In this document: in pieces, positions 5,465-32,573 of the stretch | Position numbering within the stretch: the first letter of the stretch is position 1 | Layout of the letters: every line of letters starts with the position of its first letter | Source: Ilumatobacteraceae bacterium | GTDB lineage: Bacteria > Actinomycetota > Acidimicrobiia > Acidimicrobiales > Ilumatobacteraceae | DNA: 43,319 nucleotides | Direction: 5' to 3' | Assembly: GCA_017859785.1 (NCBI GenBank) | Contig: JAFMMJ010000011.1 | Span: 1-43,319, forward strand | Translations under genes and position numbers: made by a program | Notes under the pieces: generated by a model | What the model was told of the DNA's origin: nothing | The model's input: the letters and a program-made list of their open reading frames with translations, nothing else | The model's database searches: none

Positions 5465-7450
5465 ATGACGCGACCCGAGGTGCTCTGGACTCCACCGGTG
5501 GACGCCCGCCGGTCGACGCGGCTCGGAACCTTCATCGATCTCTGTGAGCGGCGCACCGGGCGCGATTTCCCCGATTACGAGGCGCTGTGGGCATGGTCGG
5601 TCAGCACGGGACTCGAGGATTTCTGGGCCGCGATCTGGGAGTACTTCGACATTGCCTCGGACGGAGCGGTCGAGCAGGTTCTCGATCGTCGAGTGATGCC
5701 GGGGGCGCGCTGGTTCTCTGGCGCTCGAACCAACTTCGCGGAGCACTGCCTCCGTCATCTCGACGAGTCGCGGCCCGCGATCATCGCGCGATCCCAGTCG
5801 AGGGACCGCGTCGAGATGAGCGGTGCTGATCTCATCGAGGCGGTGCGTCGAGCGCGTGCTGCGCTCGTCGAGCTCGGTGTCGGACCCGGCGACCGTGTCG
5901 CGGCTTATCTGCCGAACATCCCCGAGACGATCGTGGCCTTTCTCGCGGTGTCGAGCCTGGGCGGAGTGTGGACCTCGTGCGCTCCTGAGTTCGGTGTGCG
6001 CGCCGTGCTCGACCGGTTCTCGCAGGTCGAGCCGACCGTGCTGCTCGCCGTGGATGGCTATCGCTACGGCCGACACGCCGTCGGGCGCGTGGACGAAGTG
6101 GCCGAGATCTGCGCTGGGCTGCCGACGCTCTCCTCGGTGATCTCGGTCGCCTATCTCGACGGGGGTCTTCCCGCGTCGATCGCCGCGGTGCCGGTCCTCG
6201 ACTGGGCGGAGGTGATGGAGGCACCGACAGAAAGCCCGCTCGCTTTCGAGCGTCGCACGGTGGAGCACCCTCTCTACGTCCTGTACTCCTCTGGCACGAC
6301 CGGCCTGCCGAAACCGATCGTGCACGGTCAGGGTCTTGTGCTCCTCGAGCACCTAAAAGTGCAGGGTCTCCACGGCGACATGGGTCCCGAGGATCGGTTC
6401 TTCTGGTTCACCACCACTGGCTGGATGATGTGGAACTACCTCGTTTCCGGACTTCTCCACGGCTCGACGCTCGTGCTCTACGACGGCGACCCGAACGCGA
6501 ATGGACCCGAGACGCTGTGGAGCCTCGCCGCCGAGGAGCGTGTCACCTGGTTCGGCGGCGGCGCCCCGTTCTTCACGGCCTGTGCCCGCGCAGGGCTCCG
6601 GGCCTCCGAGCAATTCGACTTGTCCGCGATCCGTGCGGTCGGCTCAACGGGTGCGCCGCTGCCCCCCGAGGGGTTCCGCTGGATCCACGACCACGTGTCG
6701 TCGACCGCGCTGCTCTCTCCGATCTCCGGAGGCACCGATATCGCCTCCGCGTTCGTCGGCGGGAGTCCGATGACACCGGTGTGGACTGGGGAGATCCCCG
6801 CCCGCTACCTCGGTTGCGCCGTGGCGGCCTTTGACGAGGACGGCCGTGAGGTGGTTGGCTCGCAGGGGGAGCTCGTGGTGACCGAGCCGATGCCGTCGAT
6901 GCCGATTGGGTTCTGGGGCGATGATGACGGAAGCCGCTACGCGGCGAGTTACTTCGAGCACTATCCCGGGATCTGGCGCCACGGTGACTGGGTCACCTTC
7001 TCTGAACGCGGATCGTGTGTCATCTCCGGTCGGAGCGACGCGACGCTCAACCGTGGTGGAGTGCGGGTCGGCACCGCGGAGATCTACCGGGTCGTCGAAT
7101 CGGTGCCTGGAGTGGCTGACTCCCTCGTGGTCCATCTCGAAGCCGAGGACGGTGACGATCCAGGTCTCCTCGTGCTCTTCGTGGTCGGCGAAGGCGAGGG
7201 TCGAGTGCTCGATCCCGATCTGGTGGCCGAGATACGAGCCGTCGTCCGTTCGCAGTTGTCGCCCCGGCATGTGCCCGATGAGGTGCACCGCCTCGATGCC
7301 GTGCCCACCACGCTGAGCGGCAAGAAGTTGGAGTTGCCGGTGAAGAAGATCCTGCTCGGCGCTGATCCCGACGTGGTCGCGAGCCGGGGGGCGCTGAAAG
7401 ATCCGGCGGCGATCGATGCGGTCGTCGAGGTTGCTCGCTCGCGCCGCTGA
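5465..7450 (+). CDS. Acetoacetyl-CoA synthetase
   Basis: ATP-dependent ligase that activates acetoacetate (AMP-forming) to acetoacetyl-CoA, linking ketone-body and polyhydroxyalkanoate carbon to thioester metabolism. It is 661 aa, the normal size for the AACS branch of the acyl-adenylate superfamily. The N-terminal cap has the family WxP-type opening. The P-loop-like motif YSSGTTGLPKPIVHG is at 274-288, TTTGWMMWN at 316-324, SGGTDIASAF at 421-430, the HGDW aspartate near 508, SGRSDATLNRGGVRVG at 521-536, and the adenylation lysine in LSGKKLELPVKK near 620. The open frame extends far upstream (to 4739) but that part is antisense to the dienelactone hydrolase. A GTG at 5459, two codons upstream and 6 nt after CAGACT, is an alternative start. 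Confidence 0.9.
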   Translation: MTRPEVLWTPPVDARRSTRLGTFIDLCERRTGRDFPDYEALWAWSVSTGLEDFWAAIWEYFDIASDGAVEQVLDRRVMPGARWFSGARTNFAEHCLRHLDESRPAIIARSQSRDRVEMSGADLIEAVRRARAALVELGVGPGDRVAAYLPNIPETIVAFLAVSSLGGVWTSCAPEFGVRAVLDRFSQVEPTVLLAVDGYRYGRHAVGRVDEVAEICAGLPTLSSVISVAYLDGGLPASIAAVPVLDWAEVMEAPTESPLAFERRTVEHPLYVLYSSGTTGLPKPIVHGQGLVLLEHLKVQGLHGDMGPEDRFFWFTTTGWMMWNYLVSGLLHGSTLVLYDGDPNANGPETLWSLAAEERVTWFGGGAPFFTACARAGLRASEQFDLSAIRAVGSTGAPLPPEGFRWIHDHVSSTALLSPISGGTDIASAFVGGSPMTPVWTGEIPARYLGCAVAAFDEDGREVVGSQGELVVTEPMPSMPIGFWGDDDGSRYAASYFEHYPGIWRHGDWVTFSERGSCVISGRSDATLNRGGVRVGTAEIYRVVESVPGVADSLVVHLEAEDGDDPGLLVLFVVGEGEGRVLDPDLVAEIRAVVRSQLSPRHVPDEVHRLDAVPTTLSGKKLELPVKKILLGADPDVVASRGALKDPAAIDAVVEVARSRR

Positions 7451-7459
7451 GGCTCAGCG
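7445..7459. terminator. Hairpin between convergent genes
   Basis: CGCTGA-GGC-TCAGCG forms a perfect 6-bp stem spanning the end of the synthetase gene and the end of the thioesterase gene. There is no T-tract, so bidirectional termination is only suggested. Confidence 0.35.
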
Positions 7460-8257
7460 CGGCTCGACCAGCAGGCTCTGGAGGCTCAGTCCGAGCGGCC
7501 CGTTCTCGTCGTGGAGAACAGAATGCGCGAGGCCGGTGCCCGTGCCGCCGAGATGCGATGACGCCCTCAGGCCGATCCACTCGCCGTCAGCCGGTCGAGC
7601 GAGGTGGATCGTGAGATCTGGGTTGATGTAAAGCCAACTGGTGAAGTCGACGTCGGCGGAGACGCCGTTGCCGAAGTCGGCCGCCGCCGCGACTCGTTGA
7701 AGTCCACTCGGGCTCTCGCCGGCGATGACGGGCTGGAGCAGTCGGATCCACACCGCGCATTCACCGAGTTGGTTCCAGCCGCCGCTCGCGAATCGGAACT
7801 CGCAGGCATGGCCGACGTAGCTCGGCCGGTCGTCGGTGAAGTCGGCCACATCGGGCCGTGACTCCTCGACCGGGGCTGGCATCGTCGAGGCCGGCACAAC
7901 ACCTGAAGGAAGTTCGTCCTCACGACGACGGATGCGGAGCGCTCGGACACCGGCTACCTCATTCTCCCCATCGATGAGGGAGGCGGTGACCACGGAGATG
8001 CGCCGACCGGCGCGCTCGGTCGTCGAGACGACTCGTAGCGGTTGGCGCACTCGGATCGGCCGAAGAAGTTCGATGGTCAGTCGGGCGACCTGCCACTCGA
8101 CACCCTCGTCGTGGTTGTGTTGCTCGACCGCTCGAGCGAGAAGCGCTGACGGAGGCCCGCCATGACAGTTGGCCGGATCCCAGGGCCCGGCGGCAAGTTC
8201 GGTCGGAGCCAGACGGTCTCCCGATTCCTCGAAGAGCGCATCGGCTTGATCGTTCAT
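7454..8257 (-). CDS. Double-hotdog acyl-CoA thioesterase family protein
   Basis: 267-aa protein of the TesB-like double-hotdog thioesterase group, which hydrolyses acyl-CoA to free acid and CoA. The N-terminal hotdog shows the typical opening (PANCHGGPPSALLARAVEQ, residues 28-46) with HGGP replacing the canonical nucleotide-binding stretch. The C-terminal hotdog runs from about 145 (FRFASGG) to FTSWLYINPDLTIHLARP and ends in GLSLQSLLV, a usual family ending. Acyl specificity is unknown. It lies 2 nt downstream of the alpha/beta hydrolase gene on the same strand, so the two are co-transcribed. Confidence 0.8.
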   Translation of the reverse strand: MNDQADALFEESGDRLAPTELAAGPWDPANCHGGPPSALLARAVEQHNHDEGVEWQVARLTIELLRPIRVRQPLRVVSTTERAGRRISVVTASLIDGENEVAGVRALRIRRREDELPSGVVPASTMPAPVEESRPDVADFTDDRPSYVGHACEFRFASGGWNQLGECAVWIRLLQPVIAGESPSGLQRVAAAADFGNGVSADVDFTSWLYINPDLTIHLARPADGEWIGLRASSHLGGTGTGLAHSVLHDENGPLGLSLQSLLVEPR

Positions 8258-8259
8258 GG

Positions 8260-8967
8260 TCAGGCTGCTGCGAGGCGGGCGATGATGCGCGCCGACTCGA
8301 CCGGATCCTCGATGTACGGATAGTGATCGCGATCGAGTTCGATCACCTCATCGCAGCGCGCAGCCATGATCCGCTGGTGCTCGGGGTGCACGGTGCGATC
8401 GCGTTGGCAGAGCACGTACGTCGACGGTGTCGACTCGCGAGGGCTGCCGACGACCGCTTGGGTCATCGCGGCGTTCGGCTGCGGTGAGTGACGCGCCGCG
8501 AGCGCCTCCCGCTCGGACTCACTCAGCGTGGGGTAGAAGAGCGGTCCGATGAGTTCGGGATCGAGCGTGCTCGTTCCGTCCTCCGCCGGTCGGATTGCGT
8601 CGGCGAGCTCCACCCGGTGACGGGGCGCGGCACGAAGGAAGCCGTTGACGCTCTCTCCGTCGTCGAGTGCGAAAGCGGCGATGTAGAGGAGATGGGAGAC
8701 GGGGGTGAGCGCTGCGGCTTCGGTAATCACTGCTCCGCCATAGGAGTGCCCGACAAGCACGGTGTCGGGTCCGATTACGGCGGCCGCGTCAGCGGCTGCC
8801 CGCGCGTCGCCCGCTAGATCGCCGAGTGGCAGGGGAGAGTCACCATGGCCAGGGAGGTCGATCGAGTGCGATACGACACCGAGTCGTTCGAGCTCGGTCT
8901 GGAGCCCCGCCCAGCACCATGCTCCGCTCCAAGCGCCATGAACCAGCAATACGGGACGGTGCGGCAT
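8260..8967 (-). CDS. Alpha/beta hydrolase, methyl-esterase-like
   Basis: 235-aa soluble alpha/beta hydrolase. HGAWSGAWCW at 10-19 is the oxyanion region, GHSYGG gives nucleophile Ser75, and Asp190 (CQRDRTV) and His215 (DRDHYPYIEDP) complete the triad. The compact size and the HGAW...DH(S/Y)P pattern are those of the plant salicylate-methyl-esterase/pyrethroid-hydrolase-like branch found in many actinobacteria. The substrate is unknown. It is followed by the thioesterase gene with a 2-nt gap and preceded by a small membrane protein gene 45 nt upstream. The hexamer CACGAT, 6 nt before the ATG, may be a weak -10 box of its own. Confidence 0.85.
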   Translation of the reverse strand: MPHRPVLLVHGAWSGAWCWAGLQTELERLGVVSHSIDLPGHGDSPLPLGDLAGDARAAADAAAVIGPDTVLVGHSYGGAVITEAAALTPVSHLLYIAAFALDDGESVNGFLRAAPRHRVELADAIRPAEDGTSTLDPELIGPLFYPTLSESEREALAARHSPQPNAAMTQAVVGSPRESTPSTYVLCQRDRTVHPEHQRIMAARCDEVIELDRDHYPYIEDPVESARIIARLAAA

Positions 8968-9012
8968 TCGCCGATCGTGGCACGTTCGTCCTCTGCTGGA
9001 CGAGATGTTGGA

Positions 9013-9267
9013 TCAGTCGCGACGCGTGCGAAGCAGCGAGCCGGTGAAGCCGACAACGATGACGGTGAGCACGAGCACGCCCCGGCCGACGGCTCCAAGT
9101 GAGTCGTGGGTGACCATCGCGGCCGCGGCGGCCGTGGCGCTCATCGTGACGCCGAGGCGAATCGTGGCAGACCAGTCAACGTTCGGATCGGACGCGTCAC
9201 CGGTGGCTAGGCGATCGCCAGTGCCACGTCCGGCGATGAGGGTCATGTCGGTCACAGGAGTGTTCAT
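9013..9267 (-). CDS. Small membrane protein of unknown function
   Basis: 84-aa frame that I do not recognise. It has a polar N-terminal third, then two hydrophobic stretches at about 34-52 and 60-79, ending in a positive tail (LLRTRRD). This looks like a two-helix membrane hairpin with a cytoplasmic C-terminus. Codon usage resembles its neighbours and it is co-oriented with the hydrolase-thioesterase pair downstream. There is no strong ribosome-binding site or -10 box at the ATG, so the start and even the gene are moderately uncertain. Confidence 0.5.
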   Translation of the reverse strand: MNTPVTDMTLIAGRGTGDRLATGDASDPNVDWSATIRLGVTMSATAAAAAMVTHDSLGAVGRGVLVLTVIVVGFTGSLLRTRRD

Positions 9268-24198: not shown

Positions 24199-25470
24199 GT
24201 GCGTGTCGACATCGACGGTGGGCGTCTCCTGGAGCGTCTTGAGGCCCTCGCCGAGATTGGCCCGATCACCGGGGCATCCGGCGAGCGAGGGAGCGCGCGC
24301 CTCGCCTTGACCGACGCAGACCGCGACGGTCGCGATCTGGTGGTGGGCTGGATGCGCGACCTCGGGCTCGACGTGACGATCGATGCGATCGGCAATGTGA
24401 TCGCGGTGATGGGGGAGAGTTGTGGGCATCGGTCCGGACGTCCTCCCGTCCTGTGCGGCTCGCATATCGACACCGTCGCCACCGGAGGTCGGTTCGACGG
24501 CAATCTCGGCGTGCTCGCTGGGCTCGAGGTGATCGAATCCGTTCTCGCGGCGGGAGTCGAGTTGCGCCGACCGCTCGGTGTCGGCTTTTTCACCGATGAG
24601 GAAGGGGCCCGATTCGCCCCGGACATGCTCGGAAGTCTCGTGTACGCGGGAGGGATGACGGTCGAGCAAGCCCACGACATCCGTGCTGCTGATCCAGGTG
24701 GACCGGGGCCAACGGTTCGCGCCGAACTCGATCGCATCGGGTACCTCGGGGCCGCTCCGTGTCCGGGTCCGGTTCCTCACGCCTTCATCGAGTTGCATGT
24801 CGAGCAGGGTCCGGTGCTTGAGGCGCAGGGCGTCCGGATTGGAGCGGTCACCGGTGTGCAGGGGATCTCGTGGACTCGCGTGACCTTCACGGGGCAGTCG
24901 AACCACGCCGGGACGACACCCATGGCCATGCGGCGCGATCCCGCGGCCGCCCTCGCGCGCATTGCCGTCTTCGTGAACGATCTCGCCGATCGGTTCGGGG
25001 CGCCGCAGGTGGCGACGGTTGGGCGGATCGAACTTCATCCGAACCTGATCAACGTGGTGCCGTCCCGAGCGACGTTCACCGTCGACCTCCGAAACACCGA
25101 CGAGGACATCCTTCGCCGCGCTGAGGCAGAACTCGACGGCGAGCTCGCCCGTGTCGCGAAGCGTCACGGGGTCGACGTCGAGACGGAGTCGCTCGCTCGA
25201 TTCGAGCCGGTCGCTTTCGACGAGCGGGTGGTGTCGAAGGTGGAGTCTGCGGCCGCAGCTCGCGGGCTGTCGGTCCAGCGAATGCCGTCGGGGGCCGGGC
25301 ATGATGCGCAGATGCTCGCTCGGATGTGCCCGGCTGGGATGGTGTTCGTTCCAAGCATCGGGGGGATCAGTCACAACCCGGCGGAACTCACCGATGACGC
25401 CGATCTGGTGGTCGGCTGCCAGGTGATGGCCGACGTGATGCTCGACCTCGCCGAGGGGGAGGACTGGTGA
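24199..25470 (+). CDS. M20-family N-carbamoyl-L-amino-acid / allantoate-type amidohydrolase
   Basis: 423-aa metal-dependent amidohydrolase of the AllC/HyuC/beta-ureidopropionase branch of M20 peptidases, which cleaves carbamoyl groups from ureido acids. Di-metal ligands are His89 (GSHIDT), Asp100 (GGRFDGNLG), Glu134/Glu135 (FFTDEEGARF), His200 (IELHVEQGP) and His392 (GGISHNP). SGAGHDA (364-370) and the dimerisation-domain GTTPMAMRRD carry the substrate-binding residues of carbamoylases. The likely substrates are N-carbamoyl-L-amino acids or allantoate, which sequence alone does not separate. It is first in a three-gene operon and overlaps the next gene by 4 bp (GTGA). Confidence 0.9.
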   Translation: MRVDIDGGRLLERLEALAEIGPITGASGERGSARLALTDADRDGRDLVVGWMRDLGLDVTIDAIGNVIAVMGESCGHRSGRPPVLCGSHIDTVATGGRFDGNLGVLAGLEVIESVLAAGVELRRPLGVGFFTDEEGARFAPDMLGSLVYAGGMTVEQAHDIRAADPGGPGPTVRAELDRIGYLGAAPCPGPVPHAFIELHVEQGPVLEAQGVRIGAVTGVQGISWTRVTFTGQSNHAGTTPMAMRRDPAAALARIAVFVNDLADRFGAPQVATVGRIELHPNLINVVPSRATFTVDLRNTDEDILRRAEAELDGELARVAKRHGVDVETESLARFEPVAFDERVVSKVESAAAARGLSVQRMPSGAGHDAQMLARMCPAGMVFVPSIGGISHNPAELTDDADLVVGCQVMADVMLDLAEGEDW

Positions 25471-26402
25471 CCAGAGAGATTCATGTCGGCGCCGCTCAGC
25501 TCGGCCCGATCGCTCGCGACGAGTCGAGGTCGCAGGTGGTCGACCGCCTGATCGCTCTGCTTCGAGAGGGCGCGGAGCGCGGATGCCGTCTGGTCGTTTT
25601 TCCGGAGTTGGCGCTCACCACGTTCTTCCCGCGCTGGTGGACCGAGGACCCCACCGGTCACGACCACTACTACGAGCGGGAGATGCCATCGGCGGCGACC
25701 CAACCGCTGTTCGACGAGGCCCGCCGGCTCGGAGTCGGTTTCTGCCTCGGCTACGCCGAGTTGACCCCCGACGGACACCGTTACAACACTTACGTGCTCG
25801 TCGACGTCGACGGCTCGATCGTCGGCCGGTATCGCAAGGTGCATATCCCGGGGCACGACGAGCATGAGCCCTGGCGGCCGTTCCAGCACCTCGAGCGTCG
25901 CTACTTCGAGGAGTCGCCGGACGGCTTCGGGGTGCACGACGCCTTCGGTGGCGTGGTCGGCATGGCGCTCTGCAATGACCGACGATGGCCCGAGACGTAC
26001 CGGGTGCTTGGTTTGCTCGGCGTCGAACTGGTGCTGATCGGGTACAACACGCCGCTCCACTACGCGCCCGATCCTGATCAGAACCCGCTCCAGTCGTTCC
26101 ATAACAATCTCGTCATGGCCTCCGGTGCCTACCAAAACGGAACGTGGGTGGTGGGTGTCGCCAAGGGCGGAGTTGAGGAGGGCGTCGAGTCGCTCTCCCA
26201 CTCCCAGATCATCGCCCCGTCGGGCCAGGTGGTGACTCAAGCGACCGTGTCGGGCGATCTGATCGTCTCAGCGGTGTGCGACCTTGATCTCTGTCGCCAC
26301 TACAAGGACACCCTGTTCGATTTCGCTAGGTATCGCCGTCCTGAGCACTACGGGCTCATCTCCTCGACGCGCGGGGTCGTCGATCGCGCGGAGCCTCGAT
26401 GA
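25467..26402 (+). CDS. N-carbamoyl-D-amino-acid hydrolase (nitrilase superfamily)
   Basis: 311-aa carbon-nitrogen hydrolase closely resembling Agrobacterium D-carbamoylase (304 aa). The catalytic triad is Glu47 (VFPELALTTFFPRW), Lys124 (YRKVHIPGHDEHEPWRPFQHLE) and Cys169 (ALCNDRRWPE). In D-carbamoylase they are Glu47, Lys127 and Cys172. The surrounding phrases (TTFFPRW, PFQHLE-RYF, CNDRRWPE, GYNTP, HYGLI near the end) are diagnostic of that subfamily rather than of generic nitrilases. It releases ammonia and CO2 from N-carbamoyl-D-amino acids or a related ureido acid. It is coupled on both sides by 4-bp overlaps. The start GTG 25467 is fixed by the overlap and the MTREI-type N-terminus. Confidence 0.93.
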   Translation: MTREIHVGAAQLGPIARDESRSQVVDRLIALLREGAERGCRLVVFPELALTTFFPRWWTEDPTGHDHYYEREMPSAATQPLFDEARRLGVGFCLGYAELTPDGHRYNTYVLVDVDGSIVGRYRKVHIPGHDEHEPWRPFQHLERRYFEESPDGFGVHDAFGGVVGMALCNDRRWPETYRVLGLLGVELVLIGYNTPLHYAPDPDQNPLQSFHNNLVMASGAYQNGTWVVGVAKGGVEEGVESLSHSQIIAPSGQVVTQATVSGDLIVSAVCDLDLCRHYKDTLFDFARYRRPEHYGLISSTRGVVDRAEPR

Positions 26403-27424
26403 CGGCTCAGAGCGCGGGCCTGGTGTGCGCGCATCACCACCTCTACTCATCGCTCGCTCGCGGCATGCCAGCTCCTGAACGCACGCCGGCCGGCTTCACC
26501 GACATCCTCGAACTGGTCTGGTGGCGGCTCGACACAGCCCTCGATCTCGAGATGATTCGCTGGTCGGCGATGCTCGGCGCGCTCGAGGCTCTCGAGCGAG
26601 GCTGCACGACGATCATCGATCACCACGAGTCGCCGAACGCGATCGAGGGTTCGCTCACTGTGATCGCCGACGCCTGCGCCGAGATCGGTGTCCGCGTGCT
26701 GTGCGCCTATGGGGTGACCGATCGTCATGGAGCCGACGGCTCTCGCCGGGGCCTCGAGGAGAACCGTCGGTTCCTCGCGGAGGGTGGTCGGGGGATGGTT
26801 GGTGTCCACGCCGCGTTCACCTGCAGCGATGAGACCCTCGCCGGCGCTGCCGAACTCGCCTCATCGTTCGGGGTCGGCGTGCACATCCACGTCGCCGAGG
26901 GTGAGGCCGATCGCGATGCCGCGAAGCGACTCGAGGGTCTCACCGACGACTCCTGGCTGCTCGTGCACGGCGTTCATCTCGAGGATGCCCACGGTTTGCG
27001 GGGCACCGTGATCCACAACCCGCGGTCGAACATGAACAACTCGGTCGGCTACGCGGCGCCGGCACGGTTCTCGAATCCGATCGCGCTCGGCACCGACGGC
27101 ATCGGCGCCGACATGCTCGAGGAGTTCCGTTTGGCCTACGTGCGATCTCGTGAGCACGACGTGACCGTCGGTCCGGAACTCGCCTGGGGATGGCTGGAGG
27201 CGGGGCGAGACCTCGTCCCCGAGGCGGCCAATGACGTGGTGACCTGGCATCACGGAGAGATCGATCCGTGGTATCTCGCCTTCACGCCCGGGCTCAGCCC
27301 AGTGGACGTCGTGATCGACGGTGAGGTGGTCCTCGCCGAAGGTCGTCCGACACGAGTGGATCCGAACGAAGTGCGCGCGAAAGCTGCCGAGCAGGCGCGG
27401 CGACTCTTCGCTCGGCTGGGGTGA
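26399..27424 (+). CDS. ssnA: SsnA-like aminohydrolase, compact form
   Basis: 341-aa amidohydrolase-superfamily protein most like E. coli SsnA (442 aa), a putative purine-related aminohydrolase. Shared phrases include WWRLDTALD, GCTTIIDHHESPNAIEGSL, HNPRSNMNNSVGY and LGTDGIGADMLEE. The metal and catalytic residues are intact: His12 and His14, His164, Glu167 (HIHVAEG), His190 (LVHGVHL) and Asp233. Unusually, it starts only 11 residues before the HxH motif, so the N-terminal half of the beta-sandwich (about 55 residues in SsnA) is missing, and a segment near the C-terminal strands is shortened. The ATG overlaps the carbamoylase stop by 4 bp, so the short start is real. Deaminase activity is likely; substrate unknown. 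Confidence 0.8.
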   Translation: MTAQSAGLVCAHHHLYSSLARGMPAPERTPAGFTDILELVWWRLDTALDLEMIRWSAMLGALEALERGCTTIIDHHESPNAIEGSLTVIADACAEIGVRVLCAYGVTDRHGADGSRRGLEENRRFLAEGGRGMVGVHAAFTCSDETLAGAAELASSFGVGVHIHVAEGEADRDAAKRLEGLTDDSWLLVHGVHLEDAHGLRGTVIHNPRSNMNNSVGYAAPARFSNPIALGTDGIGADMLEEFRLAYVRSREHDVTVGPELAWGWLEAGRDLVPEAANDVVTWHHGEIDPWYLAFTPGLSPVDVVIDGEVVLAEGRPTRVDPNEVRAKAAEQARRLFARLG

Positions 27425-29646: not shown

Positions 29647-29675
29647 GGGCTGCGGAGACGGCGGTCTCTCAGCCC
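29647..29675. terminator. Strong hairpin shared by mutY and the selenoprotein gene
   Basis: GGGCTG, a bulged C, then GGAGAC, loop GGCG, and the matching GTCTCT and CAGCCC. This is a 12-bp stem with one G-T pair and one bulge, between the convergent gene ends. It includes the stop codon of the selenoprotein gene at 29669-29671. No T-tract; likely bidirectional. Confidence 0.6.
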
Positions 29676-30193
29676 GAGGTGATGGCGGCGACGATCTCGT
29701 CGATCGATTGATCGGCGTGGGCCCGCATCTCATCGTCGGTGCGGTCCTGAATGGGGTGCGGCACGAAGACGCGCGCCATGGTCGGGTATCCGAGCGAGGT
29801 GCTTTGGGCGACGGCGGCGTCGATGAACTCACTTGACGCGACGAATACGCCCGGCACCCCTCGGATCTCGAGATCACTGATGTCGTGCACACTGCACGAC
29901 GTGCAGCTGCCTCAATCGGCGAGCGCTTCGATCACGACGTGACATTGATCAGCGATCTCGTGACGCAGATCGACTGGCGCCGGTTTGGCGAAGGTCGGCT
30001 TGCGATAGCGCCTGACAGTCGCTCCGCGACGTTCAAGGTGCTCAGCGATCCGGTCGAGGAAGACGTTCCCGCGTGGTTTCGAGATGTCGAGCAGGCCGAC
30101 GGTCAGTCCGTCGAGGCTCTCGGGCCGCGTGATGCGTTGACGCTCGGCTGGGGTCGACTCCGCCGTCGGATCGAGTAGCACCTTCGACGCCAT
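29669..30193 (-). CDS. UGSC-family selenoprotein (Sec94 encoded by TGA)
   Basis: 174-aa protein read through an in-frame TGA at 29912-29914. Upstream codons 1-93 run from ATG 30193 (MASKVLLDPTAEST) to VVIEALAD. The frame then continues unchanged for 80 codons after the TGA, giving U-G-S-C-T-S-C-S-V-H-D, to a TGA stop at 29669-29671. The two halves form one recognisable protein of the UGSC family of (seleno)proteins. The first half has the Rossmann-like GLLDISKPRGNVFLDRIAEHL; the second has GVPGVFVASSEF and PHPIQDRT. Sec94 with Cys97 (UxxC) and Cys97/Cys100 (CxxC) form a likely redox centre. Function unknown. A SECIS-like hairpin follows the TGA. The gene starts 4 nt after the stop of the thioredoxin-fusion gene. 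A standard caller would report two unrelated short ORFs (29912-30193 and 29669-29890). Confidence 0.9.
29882..29900 (-). promoter_or_regulatory. SECIS-like hairpin in the selenoprotein mRNA
   Basis: Counting the UGA as 1-3, positions 15-22 (GUCGUGCA) pair perfectly with 26-33 (UGCACGAC) around loop G23-U24-G25. Bacterial SECIS elements bind SelB through a GU in the apical loop at this distance. In E. coli fdhF (from memory) the loop GGUC also has G23-U24 flanked by UGCA arms. A competing hairpin, CUGCAC-GUC-GUGCAG (positions 9-23), is possible. Confidence 0.8.
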
Positions 30194-30197
30194 GGGT

Positions 30198-31637
30198 TCA
30201 GTATTGCACCGCTCGGGTGACGGGTCGGCTGCCGGAATCTCCGTTGACCCAGCCGGCGATCAGCATCGAGAAGAGTCCTGCGCCTCCGCCGGCGTGGGCG
30301 AGCATGAGGCCTCCTGGGCTGAATTTCGGCAGTGACTCGAGCCCGAGGCCGTCGGGGATGCCCTCGGCGATTCCGCCGGCGCCGCGAACGATCTCGGCGT
30401 AGGGCAGCTGCAAGCGGGCTTCGAGTTCGGCGACGATCCGTGTCCGGTCCCATCCGCCCTCGGTGAACACCCGAACGTGCTCGGGCCCGAGCACGAGGAT
30501 CGCGTCGAAAGCGAGCGCCAACTTGTGGTGATGCATCGAGCGGAGATTCTCGGCGAGGGTTCCAGCGAGGCTCTCGGGGGTGCGTGACAGCTGATCGACG
30601 ATGCAGCGGGGCCCCTCCCCGGCGAACACGGTGATCGCATCGGTTGACTCATCAATGTCGGAACGGCTCGATGCGAGCGAGCCGAACGGGCCGGGATGCT
30701 CGGCGAAGCAGAAGCTCAGCTTGCCGGGGTTGCCGTGGGTGGCCCGGTCGACGCCGCCGGGTCGACCGCCGCCGAGGTTGCGAACCAGCAACTGGAGCGC
30801 CCGGCCGATCGACAGCGACGCCCTGTTGCCCTGCCCGAGCGCGTTGACCCCCGGGTTCATCCCGATCCGCGACGTTCCCGGCCCGCTGCACACGATGACG
30901 GGGCCGACAGGCATGGTGGTCGCGAGCAGTCCGTGCATGTTGAACTCGTCGTTGCAGACGGCCTCGACCGCGGTGATGACCCAGGGCAGGTGCTCGGGCA
31001 GGCAGCCGGCCATGACGGCCGAGATCGCGATCTTTTCGACGGTGGCCTGAACGAGGTCGGGCGGAACGATCGCGACGACCTCGTCGGGTGGTCTCGAGGT
31101 GCCTTCGAGCATGGCGAGCACTCGCTCGGCGGTTGGGGGCACGAGCGGCAGACCATCGCTCCACCCCATGCGATGCATGTACTCGAATTCGTCTTCGGCC
31201 TCGGCGAGGTCGAGGTGTCGAGATCGAAGGAGCGATCCGGAGTGCCGGGCACGCAGGGTGTCGACGAGATCAGGGTCGACGCTCATCGATCCGCAACCTG
31301 GGCGCTGTTCGGGAAGGCTGAGGTTCTCGGCGAGTTGATCGATGCCGGCCAGGGCTCGCCACTGCTGAAGTGACCAGCCGACGGTGCGCGCCTCCTCACC
31401 GTTGGCGCCGACCCGGATGAGGGTCGGAACGGTCTCGATGTCGTGGTGCCAACTCACGGACAGGTCGCGGTCGTCGGTGACCTCGAGGCCTTCGGGGAAG
31501 GCGGGATCGTCTTGTGAGTAGATGGTCAGCGAGGTGACTTCGGCGAGTTCGGCGAGAACGGGCGCGACGGTTCGACAGGTCTCGCAGTCCCGCTTGACCA
31601 CGGCGACGAGGCCTTCGGGGAGCGGTGGCGCTGCCAT
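30198..31637 (-). CDS. Thioredoxin-domain fusion protein, partner of the UGSC selenoprotein
   Basis: 479-aa protein in two parts. Residues 1 to about 105 are a thioredoxin-like domain: VAVVKRDCETCRTVAPVL gives the CxxC pair Cys18/Cys21, and Pro71 in ETVPTLIRV is the cis-proline. From about 110 follows RPGCGSMSVDP, then a long conserved domain of unknown function beginning FEYMHRMGWSDGLPLVPPT (151-169). That domain is glycine-rich, with cysteines in VMAGCLP, EAVCNDEFNMHG, VIVCSGPG and FCFAEHPG. I know the DGLPLVPPT-type domain as an uncharacterised protein found beside UGSC genes. It heads the two-gene operon with a TAGCGT box 6 nt before its ATG. A redox partner or reductant-delivery role for the selenoprotein is inference. 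Confidence 0.75.
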   Translation of the reverse strand: MAAPPLPEGLVAVVKRDCETCRTVAPVLAELAEVTSLTIYSQDDPAFPEGLEVTDDRDLSVSWHHDIETVPTLIRVGANGEEARTVGWSLQQWRALAGIDQLAENLSLPEQRPGCGSMSVDPDLVDTLRARHSGSLLRSRHLDLAEAEDEFEYMHRMGWSDGLPLVPPTAERVLAMLEGTSRPPDEVVAIVPPDLVQATVEKIAISAVMAGCLPEHLPWVITAVEAVCNDEFNMHGLLATTMPVGPVIVCSGPGTSRIGMNPGVNALGQGNRASLSIGRALQLLVRNLGGGRPGGVDRATHGNPGKLSFCFAEHPGPFGSLASSRSDIDESTDAITVFAGEGPRCIVDQLSRTPESLAGTLAENLRSMHHHKLALAFDAILVLGPEHVRVFTEGGWDRTRIVAELEARLQLPYAEIVRGAGGIAEGIPDGLGLESLPKFSPGGLMLAHAGGGAGLFSMLIAGWVNGDSGSRPVTRAVQY

Positions 31638-31643
31638 GAAGCG

Positions 31644-31649
31644 ACGCTA
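31644..31649 (-). promoter_or_regulatory. -10 box TAGCGT of the selenoprotein operon
   Basis: TAGCGT on the minus strand lies 6 nt before ATG 31637, implying a leaderless mRNA for the thioredoxin-fusion gene and read-through into the selenoprotein gene. Confidence 0.55.
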
Positions 31650-31760
31650 ACCGACGAGCGGCCGCGCGGATGGCGACGTGTCGAGAGGGTGTGACCGATG
31701 TCGGTGAGCGCTTTGTCGGAGCGTGGCTAGCGTTCGTGCATCGGAGACAGCACGGTCACG

Positions 31761-32573
31761 GTGACCTTCCACGGGGTGCGGGGCTCGACCGCATGCCACG
31801 GTGAGGAGACGGCGCGCTACGGGGGTAACACTTCGTGTGTCAGTGTCGACGCGCCTGATCAACCGCTGATCCTCTTCGACCTCGGTACCGGATCGCGCTA
31901 TGCCTCGGTCGCCGCGGGACGCGAGGTGATCTGTCTGGTGACCCACCTCCATTGGGATCACATCCAGGGGCTGCCGTTCTTTCCGCCGATGCTCGACGAG
32001 GCGAGCGGCATCACGGTGTGCGCGCCGTCTCCGCTCGATGGTGGCTCGCTCGATGAGACGATGGCGTCGATTATCCGAGCACCGATGTTCCCGGTGGGAC
32101 TCGACGCCTTTCCGGCTCGGCCCGGTTTCATGGGTCTCGATGGGGGCTCCATGGTGATCAATGGTGTGTCGGTGTCGTCGGTGGGGGTCAGCCACGTTGG
32201 CAAAACGCTCGGCTACCGGGTTGATGTCTGCGGGGTCAGCGTGGCCTACGTCAGCGACCATCAGCAGCCGATGGACGGCTCAGGTCCCGACCCGAAAGTT
32301 CTTGATCTGTGCCGTGGTGTCGACCTGCTCATTCACGATTCGCAGTACACGGCTGCGGAACTCGCGTCGCGTCCTGATTGGGGTCACTGCACCCCAGAGT
32401 TCGCCCTCGAGGTCGCGCGAGCCTCAGGGGCCCAACATCTCGTCATGTTCCATCACGATCCAGATCGAACCGATCGCCAGCTCGACGATTTGGTCGAGGC
32501 GCATCGTGACTCGGCCGAACCCCGCGTCACGGTTGCCCGCGAGGGAGCATCGATCGCGCTCGGAGTTGACTGA
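31761..32573 (+). CDS. MBL-fold metallo-hydrolase
   Basis: 270-aa soluble metallo-beta-lactamase-fold hydrolase. The di-zinc motif THLHWDHIQG (61-70) supplies His62, His64, Asp66 and His67. Later ligands are probably His195-region GVSHVG, Asp in YVSDHQQP and His in MFHHDPDR. The opening VRGSTACHGEETARYGGNTSCV is typical of a subgroup related to phosphodiesterases (PhnP, class II cAMP phosphodiesterase). The substrate is unknown. GTG start, with GGAGA about 13 nt upstream and TAGCGT at 31728-31733, so here a short leader is likely. Divergent from the selenoprotein operon and 2 nt from the MauE-like gene. Confidence 0.82.
   Translation: MTFHGVRGSTACHGEETARYGGNTSCVSVDAPDQPLILFDLGTGSRYASVAAGREVICLVTHLHWDHIQGLPFFPPMLDEASGITVCAPSPLDGGSLDETMASIIRAPMFPVGLDAFPARPGFMGLDGGSMVINGVSVSSVGVSHVGKTLGYRVDVCGVSVAYVSDHQQPMDGSGPDPKVLDLCRGVDLLIHDSQYTAAELASRPDWGHCTPEFALEVARASGAQHLVMFHHDPDRTDRQLDDLVEAHRDSAEPRVTVAREGASIALGVD

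Follow-up and report, generated by a model that had tools for sequence, protein, structure and literature searches.

A UGSC-family selenoprotein gene and its near-constant partner gene in an Ilumatobacteraceae genome: kinship to protein B of glycine and proline reductases

The UGSC gene and the probable decoding of its in-frame TGA

The stretch of DNA analysed here (43,319 nucleotides, hereafter the window) is contig C63 of an Ilumatobacteraceae genome of 1.96 Mb that is 98.8% complete. On its minus strand lie a gene of the UGSC selenoprotein family and, directly upstream of it, a partner gene. The features of the two genes are as follows.

29669..30193, minus: selenoprotein gene of the UGSC family, 174 codons with read-through, followed by a final TGA stop
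29912..29914, minus: Sec94 codon TGA, shared by the window gene and all of the best 80 of at least 577 relatives
29903..29905, minus: Cys97 codon (UxxC), invariant in alignments A1 (21 rows) and A3 (44 rows)
29894..29896, minus: Cys100 codon, second Cys of UxxCxxC, with Trp or Tyr in some relatives
29882..29900, minus: SECIS hairpin of the bacterial type, with 8 bp in the stem, GUG in the loop and a UGA-to-loop spacing of 19 nt
30198..31637, minus: partner gene encoding 479 aa and ending 4 bases ahead of the UGSC start codon
31338..31637, minus: N-terminal domain of the partner, thioredoxin-like by sequence and structure matches, containing C18-E-T-C21
30201..31169, minus: core domain of the partner (DGLPxxPPT ... 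MAGCxPE ... IGRA ... AE), about 320 residues

The frame of the UGSC gene opens with ATG at 30193, meets TGA as codon 94 (29914-29912), continues for 80 codons and closes with a second TGA (29671-29669). The protein of 174 aa obtained by reading through the first TGA scores 160.6 bits with the Pfam family PF24696 (cut-off 25), its residues 6-172 lying on positions 2-171 of a profile of 172, and 165.3 bits with NF041046 of NCBIfam (cut-off 125), nearly the whole profile being covered. The U/C-G-S-C motif of the family is present as U94-G-S-C97. Since the read-through protein scores over both cut-offs, the two halves around the TGA form one family member. A sequence-only reading of the window had given the coordinates and the frame exactly and had claimed that the halves make one complete UGSC-family protein, which agrees with these scores. 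It had also rated the locus as a discovery; this does not stand, as PF24696 and NF041046 are already curated and the window gene is therefore a further member. It is an ordinary one, sharing the U-G-S-C motif, and no feature distinguishing it from the family was found. Gene calling with TGA as a stop truncates such a protein at its active site.

UGSC has been listed as a major selenoprotein family in the Global Ocean Sampling data, with 255 sequences, and as the most used selenoprotein family in the non-marine samples of that survey (PMC2398784). UGSC-motif selenoproteins also occur in genomes with a CUA-anticodon tRNA-Sec, including Blastococcus (PMC5330540), and a 2026 review places UGSC among the selenoproteins whose functions are largely uncharacterized (PMC13188914).

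It was found that the genome to which the window belongs carries the whole set of components for selenocysteine insertion. SelB (249.7 bits, cut-off 242.25) is encoded by an open frame of 626 aa on contig C11 and adjoins selA (390.9 bits, cut-off 267.9; open frame of 504 aa), selD scores 308.7 bits (cut-off 125), and a tRNA-Sec with anticodon TCA scores 63.1 bits (gathering score 47). All four had been named in the sequence-only reading as genes to be searched for. In this draft genome the tRNA-Sec gene (L010, G000:C60:25382-25473) is on a separate contig from selA and selB (C11) and from selD (C103).

Relatives in named genomes were collected with a nine-residue pattern lying wholly after the TGA, so that the scan was blind to codon 94 itself, and the best 80 of at least 577 relatives were kept. 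In all of these best 80 the Sec94 codon is TGA and is preceded by LAD, a count which speaks for the nearest relatives because only the best 80 were retained. They are mostly Acidimicrobiia and other actinobacteria, the nearest being Ilumatobacteraceae/Acidimicrobiia, and Chloroflexi, Hydrogenedentota, Acidobacteria, Delta- and Gammaproteobacteria and others are also represented. The sequence-only reading had held that a lack of conservation after the TGA would speak against a selenoprotein; this region is strongly conserved in the relatives, with G95, S96, C97, H103 and D104 invariant in the alignment of 44 rows. The homologues with Cys at the Sec position, which the same reading had proposed to look for, exist as well: L021, L037, L040 and L041 read CGSC.

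In a phylum sample of 396 genomes, PF24696 was matched over cut-off in 26, of which 22 have the TGA form and four (G150, G091, G284, G136) do not; two loci below cut-off and without the U/CGSC motif (L047, L048) were excluded from the UGSC counts. SelA is present in 21 of the 22 genomes with the TGA form, and the remaining one, G036, has a tRNA-Sec of 77.9 bits. Among the four others selA occurs only in G284, and tRNA-Sec reaches 58.7 bits in G284 and 49.9 bits in G136 (cut-off 47) and stays below cut-off in G091 and G150. The association of the TGA form with selA gives a Fisher p of about 2e-4, a value computed with one cell off by one. As selA is over cut-off in 226 of the 396 genomes, the Sec trait is not rare in the sample, and the statement of the sequence-only reading that selenoproteins are uncommon in high-GC actinobacteria does not fit with it.

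The hairpin after the UGA has an energy of -19.3 kcal/mol for UGA plus 42 nt and meets the bacterial SECIS model as published, that is, an early G in a loop of 3-9 nt, a stem of 4-16 bp, a spacing of 16-37 nt and an energy of -7.5 kcal/mol or lower (PMC13188914). Covariation was assessed on an alignment (A5) of 93 stretches, of which 83 are distinct, comprising the window, the 80 named loci and 12 of the 22 TGA-form sample loci; the ten sample loci left out were L045, with a differing motif, and nine presumed near relatives. Over the 83 distinct sequences 98.8% of the 664 pair cells are paired and three pairs change on both sides, with 12 double-change cells where shuffles give 1.5, and none of 500 shuffles reached that number. 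Where Trp replaces Cys100, in L024 and L034, both sides of one stem pair are altered together. The Ser101 codon is AGT in 81 of 81 sequences (AGT makes up 5% of Ser codons elsewhere in the same genes) and the Thr98 codon is ACG in 79 of 81 (background 29%), a codon bias indicating that the hairpin is not forced by the protein alone.

When the 22 TGA-form sample loci were folded singly as stretches of 54 nt, 13 gave the full 8-bp hairpin, four a shortened or wider-looped one and five another fold; none of the four Cys-form loci folded the U-form hairpin, L040 having a different stem there. Plain shuffles of the window stretch gave a z of -1.89, with 8 of 200 folding as well. Under synonymous-codon shuffling the mean z was -1.08 over the 81 sequences against -0.21 over 162 control stretches, with p 0.04 for the window, and this test is conservative because its codon pool included the conserved stretch. 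A search of the window with Rfam returned 0 matches at gathering score.

Taken from the sequence, the in-frame TGA is very probably decoded as selenocysteine; the family profiles, the Sec machinery, the conserved TGA and the hairpin all support the proposal of the sequence-only reading of a UGSC-family selenoprotein with Sec94. A general reassignment of UGA was rejected because UGA also ends both the UGSC gene and the partner gene. The same use as final stop favours a true stop at codon 94, leaving two short genes, a pseudogene or a sequencing error, but this was rejected as highly improbable in view of the TGA in all of the best 80 of at least 577 relatives, the conserved protein downstream, the covarying hairpin and the complete Sec machinery of the genome.

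The partner gene

The UGSC gene and the partner gene likely form a two-gene operon. The N-terminal domain of the partner matches thioredoxin 2o85 by sequence (E 9.5e-5), and the first row obtained by VIA-align for the partner model is 4cw9 (Z 9.2, rmsd 2.3 over 85 residues), a search that informs on the thioredoxin domain only. The core domain matched no family of Pfam or NCBIfam at E up to 10. Class I fumarase appeared for the partner in weak Foldseek rows with a TM of about 0.2 and was not believed.

With a profile made for it, the core was found at 28 of 30 loci of the phylum sample, the other two being L047 and L048. Among the named loci (the best 80 of at least 577 relatives) it is present at 73. 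Of the seven without it, L091, L094, L103 and L105 start too near the contig end; no core was found at L101, with about 390 bases before the gene, or at L090 and L109, where room is present. In a genome-wide search the core profile was matched in all 26 UGSC genomes and, overall, in 29 of the 396; of the three additional genomes, which have no PF24696 hit over cut-off, two have weak short fragments and the third is G183. There are also natural fusions of a UGSC domain with the core, namely L045 (170.4 bits), which reads UDGC, and L046 (208.8 bits), which has neither Sec nor Cys in the motif. Co-occurrence, adjacency and fusion, all taken from genome sequences, make the partner a near-constant companion of UGSC.

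Of the 101 loci carrying a core, 84 have a thioredoxin domain in the same frame; none was found in the other 17, three of which are on cut contigs (L071, L108, L141), and a built-in thioredoxin is thus not general. Within the core, D161, G162, P164, R279 and E313 are identical in 100 of 100 aligned cores, an alignment from which L108 and L141 were left out because the DGxP motif is absent in them.

A fusion called 'UGSC / Unknown_1' was described from Global Ocean Sampling data (PMC2398784), in which UGSC is joined to a conserved un-named domain as in L045 and L046, and Unknown_1 is probably the partner core. That paper's section on the Unknown_1 fusion contains neither an analysis of gene pairs nor a connection to GrdB. 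Apart from this fusion of 2008, no earlier report of the gene pair was found in a search of the main text of openly accessible articles.

Nine representatives were annotated for their surroundings. Beyond the partner and ORFs overlapping the pair, no cluster was common to Acidimicrobiia and most of the distant loci, and the larger neighbour clusters are local to one group. With no widely common neighbour, the context gives no substrate or pathway. In the window, a long open frame at 31647-32261 (minus) probably just mirrors a Lactamase_B_2 gene on the other strand (31761-32573, plus). About 2 kb from the UGSC gene, at 25467-27424 (plus), a carbon-nitrogen hydrolase adjoins an SsnA-like amidohydrolase, which scores 246.2 of 455.5 bits, below cut-off, with TIGR03314 'putative selenium metabolism protein'.

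Predicted fold of the UGSC domain and homology of its Sec half to protein B

AlphaFold2, given 44 relatives, modelled the UGSC protein with a mean pLDDT of 91.4 and a pTM of 0.85. In the predicted structure, an alpha/beta domain, five strands alternate strictly with five helices, and Sec94 sits between the strand 86-92 and the helix 95-110. Solved relatives sought by sequence were not convincing (best E 0.17). In searches with the model, VIA-align ranked first 8s7v chain H, which comes from a methyl-coenzyme M reductase activation complex (129 residues aligned, rmsd 2.6, Z 12.9). We base no functional assignment on this match, as widespread alpha/beta folds follow it at Z values between 11.6 and 9.0. 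Neither of two fold searches had a thioredoxin among the 50 rows listed, and the model together with these searches makes a thioredoxin fold for UGSC somewhat less probable.

A likeness of UGSC to GrdB was postulated beforehand and then tested. Twenty-one diverse UGSC members (alignment A1) were scanned one by one against the NCBIfam library of 18950 families with E up to 1. GrdF was matched by 12 of them (best 9.5e-6) and GrdB of TIGR01917 by 11 (best 8.5e-7), followed by TIGR01918 in four (best 9.3e-7), betaine GrdH in three (best 2.1e-6) and PrdB in three (best 0.0015). Besides UGSC and these reductase B families, the only family matched by more than one member was methylthioadenosine phosphorylase (3 of 21, best 5.5e-4). 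The window protein alone matched the GrdB models weakly (E 0.0071 and 0.0073), reaching 15.3 bits with TIGR01917 against a curated cut-off of 602.2. As the GrdB models are much longer and the scores lie far below the cut-offs, the window protein is a relative of GrdB and not a member.

In profile-profile comparison, the C-terminal parts of 17 GrdB-type proteins of the sample aligned with three UGSC alignments at probabilities of 92.8, 90.4 and 94.0%, and the printed alignment sets Sec on Sec. The 94.0% alignment has a score of 53.7, against 25.0 for the reversed profile and a maximum of 23.6 among 100 shuffles of the columns; as controls against the GrdB profile, the partner core scored 20.0 and thioredoxin 19.3, and there is no detectable relation of the partner core to GrdB. 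By these profile comparisons, the Sec half of UGSC is homologous to the Sec domain of protein B of glycine, sarcosine, betaine and D-proline reductases (GrdB/GrdF/GrdH/PrdB; TIGR01917, TIGR01918, NF040794, NF040795, TIGR04483, PF07355). The UxxCxxC motif of UGSC has also been described for GrdB (PMC13188914). The two differ in length, with 174 aa in UGSC and 431 and 435 positions in the GrdB and GrdF models, of which the C-terminal part alone is matched, and the UGSC partner gene is not a recognised GrdE/PrdA.

In the genome of the window no match was found to GRDB, nor to GRDA or Gly_reductase (GrdE/PrdA), the latter two families being matched in none of 14 control genomes either; other UGSC genomes of the sample do carry GRDB matches. 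For a GrdB query, no solved structure was returned with an E of 1 or lower. The literature search, which covered the main text of open papers, did not turn up any connection between UGSC and GrdB.

Other relatives of GrdB were seen on the way. Fifteen actinobacterial GrdB-type genes (L051-L065) have an in-frame TGA in the motif U-G-T-(G/S)-T-R-(C/S), in which the first Cys of UxxCxxC is absent, and in L052 Ser replaces the second Cys. GRDB also has short relatives that correspond to its C-terminal part and stand alone (L069, L070 and similar ones); in L069 and L070 a TGA is followed by PVCH, and they may represent a further small Sec-type branch of this superfamily.

A possible two-subunit reductase

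The best explanation, to which we give a probability of about 0.5, is that UGSC and its partner are one functional unit, a two-subunit reductase working in the manner of protein B of glycine and proline reductases. The core domain of the partner would bind a small organic substrate. The selenolate of Sec94, at the start of a helix in the alpha/beta domain, could attack an activated carbon or another electrophile of this substrate. Cys97, the likely resolving residue, would then form a selenenyl-sulfide and free the selenium, and the selenenyl-sulfide would be reduced by the CxxC of the thioredoxin domain of the partner. UGSC could in this way resemble a stripped-down protein B that has its own thioredoxin. 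The Sec decoding, the GrdB/PrdB homology and the partner linkage come from sequence comparison; the chemistry, the substrate and the direction of the reaction we infer. For protein B of the glycine and proline reductases an attack of the selenolate on carbon has been proposed (PMC10838667), and in the case of proline reductase this proposal has been called hypothetical and chemically undocumented (PMC10298544). The sequence-only reading had suggested a redox-active selenolate, which is plausible but generic, the kinship in sequence being to protein B of these reductases.

A sizeable but minority share of the probability goes to an ordinary thiol or peroxide oxidoreductase, in which Sec94 and Cys97 would cycle between selenol-thiol and selenenyl-sulfide, driven by the thioredoxin domain of the partner. 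The UxxC motif and that domain would suit such an enzyme, and the 2026 review lists UGSC beside Trx-fold selenoproteins (PMC13188914). However, the predicted alternation of five strands with helices, and the absence of thioredoxin from the 50 rows of either fold search, make it somewhat less probable. The most recurrent distant families in the library of 18950 are the B subunits of glycine, sarcosine, betaine and proline reductases, and a conserved core of about 320 residues is not obviously needed for a plain disulfide reductase.

It is unlikely, though it deserves mention, that the partner core is the enzyme and that UGSC serves merely as its dedicated reductant or protector. Two proteins with two partner-core domains each are encoded at L159 (G183:C272, 157-2148 plus and 6867-9134 minus), and no UGSC gene was found on this contig of 9.2 kb. 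In the L046 fusion the motif of the UGSC-like domain contains neither Sec nor Cys, so a selenolate may be dispensable for the core, and the five residues identical in all the aligned cores would also suit a catalytic role of the core. Against this, 25 of the 29 genomes with a core also have UGSC with a Sec or Cys motif, two of the other four hold short fragments, and a dedicated pairing fits two subunits of a single enzyme at least equally.

UGSC and its partner could further be set apart, with somewhat less assurance than the two-subunit reductase itself, as a separate class of the glycine/proline-reductase type with a minimal Sec domain, nucleophilic reductive cleavage of a substrate bound by the un-named core, no recognisable GrdE/PrdA and, in many lineages, a built-in thioredoxin. 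On the same tentative reading the class would span actinobacteria of lakes and of the sea and several other phyla.

What the analysis adds is the kinship to GrdB and the partner gene, neither of which was in the sequence-only reading; the UGSC family itself had been curated before. Together the kinship and the near-constant partner allow an orphan selenoprotein to be tested as a two-protein enzyme. C-N bonds are the target of GrdB-type proteins, and cleavage of a C-F bond has been proposed for a relative (PMC10838667); for this reason a compact, thioredoxin-coupled version could be useful to study in the chemistry of carbon, nitrogen and halogens.

The ORFs beside the double-core proteins of L159 resemble, by eye, an FAD monooxygenase, a class II aldolase and a MarR regulator, and the partner core may have a role of its own in a catabolic cluster there.
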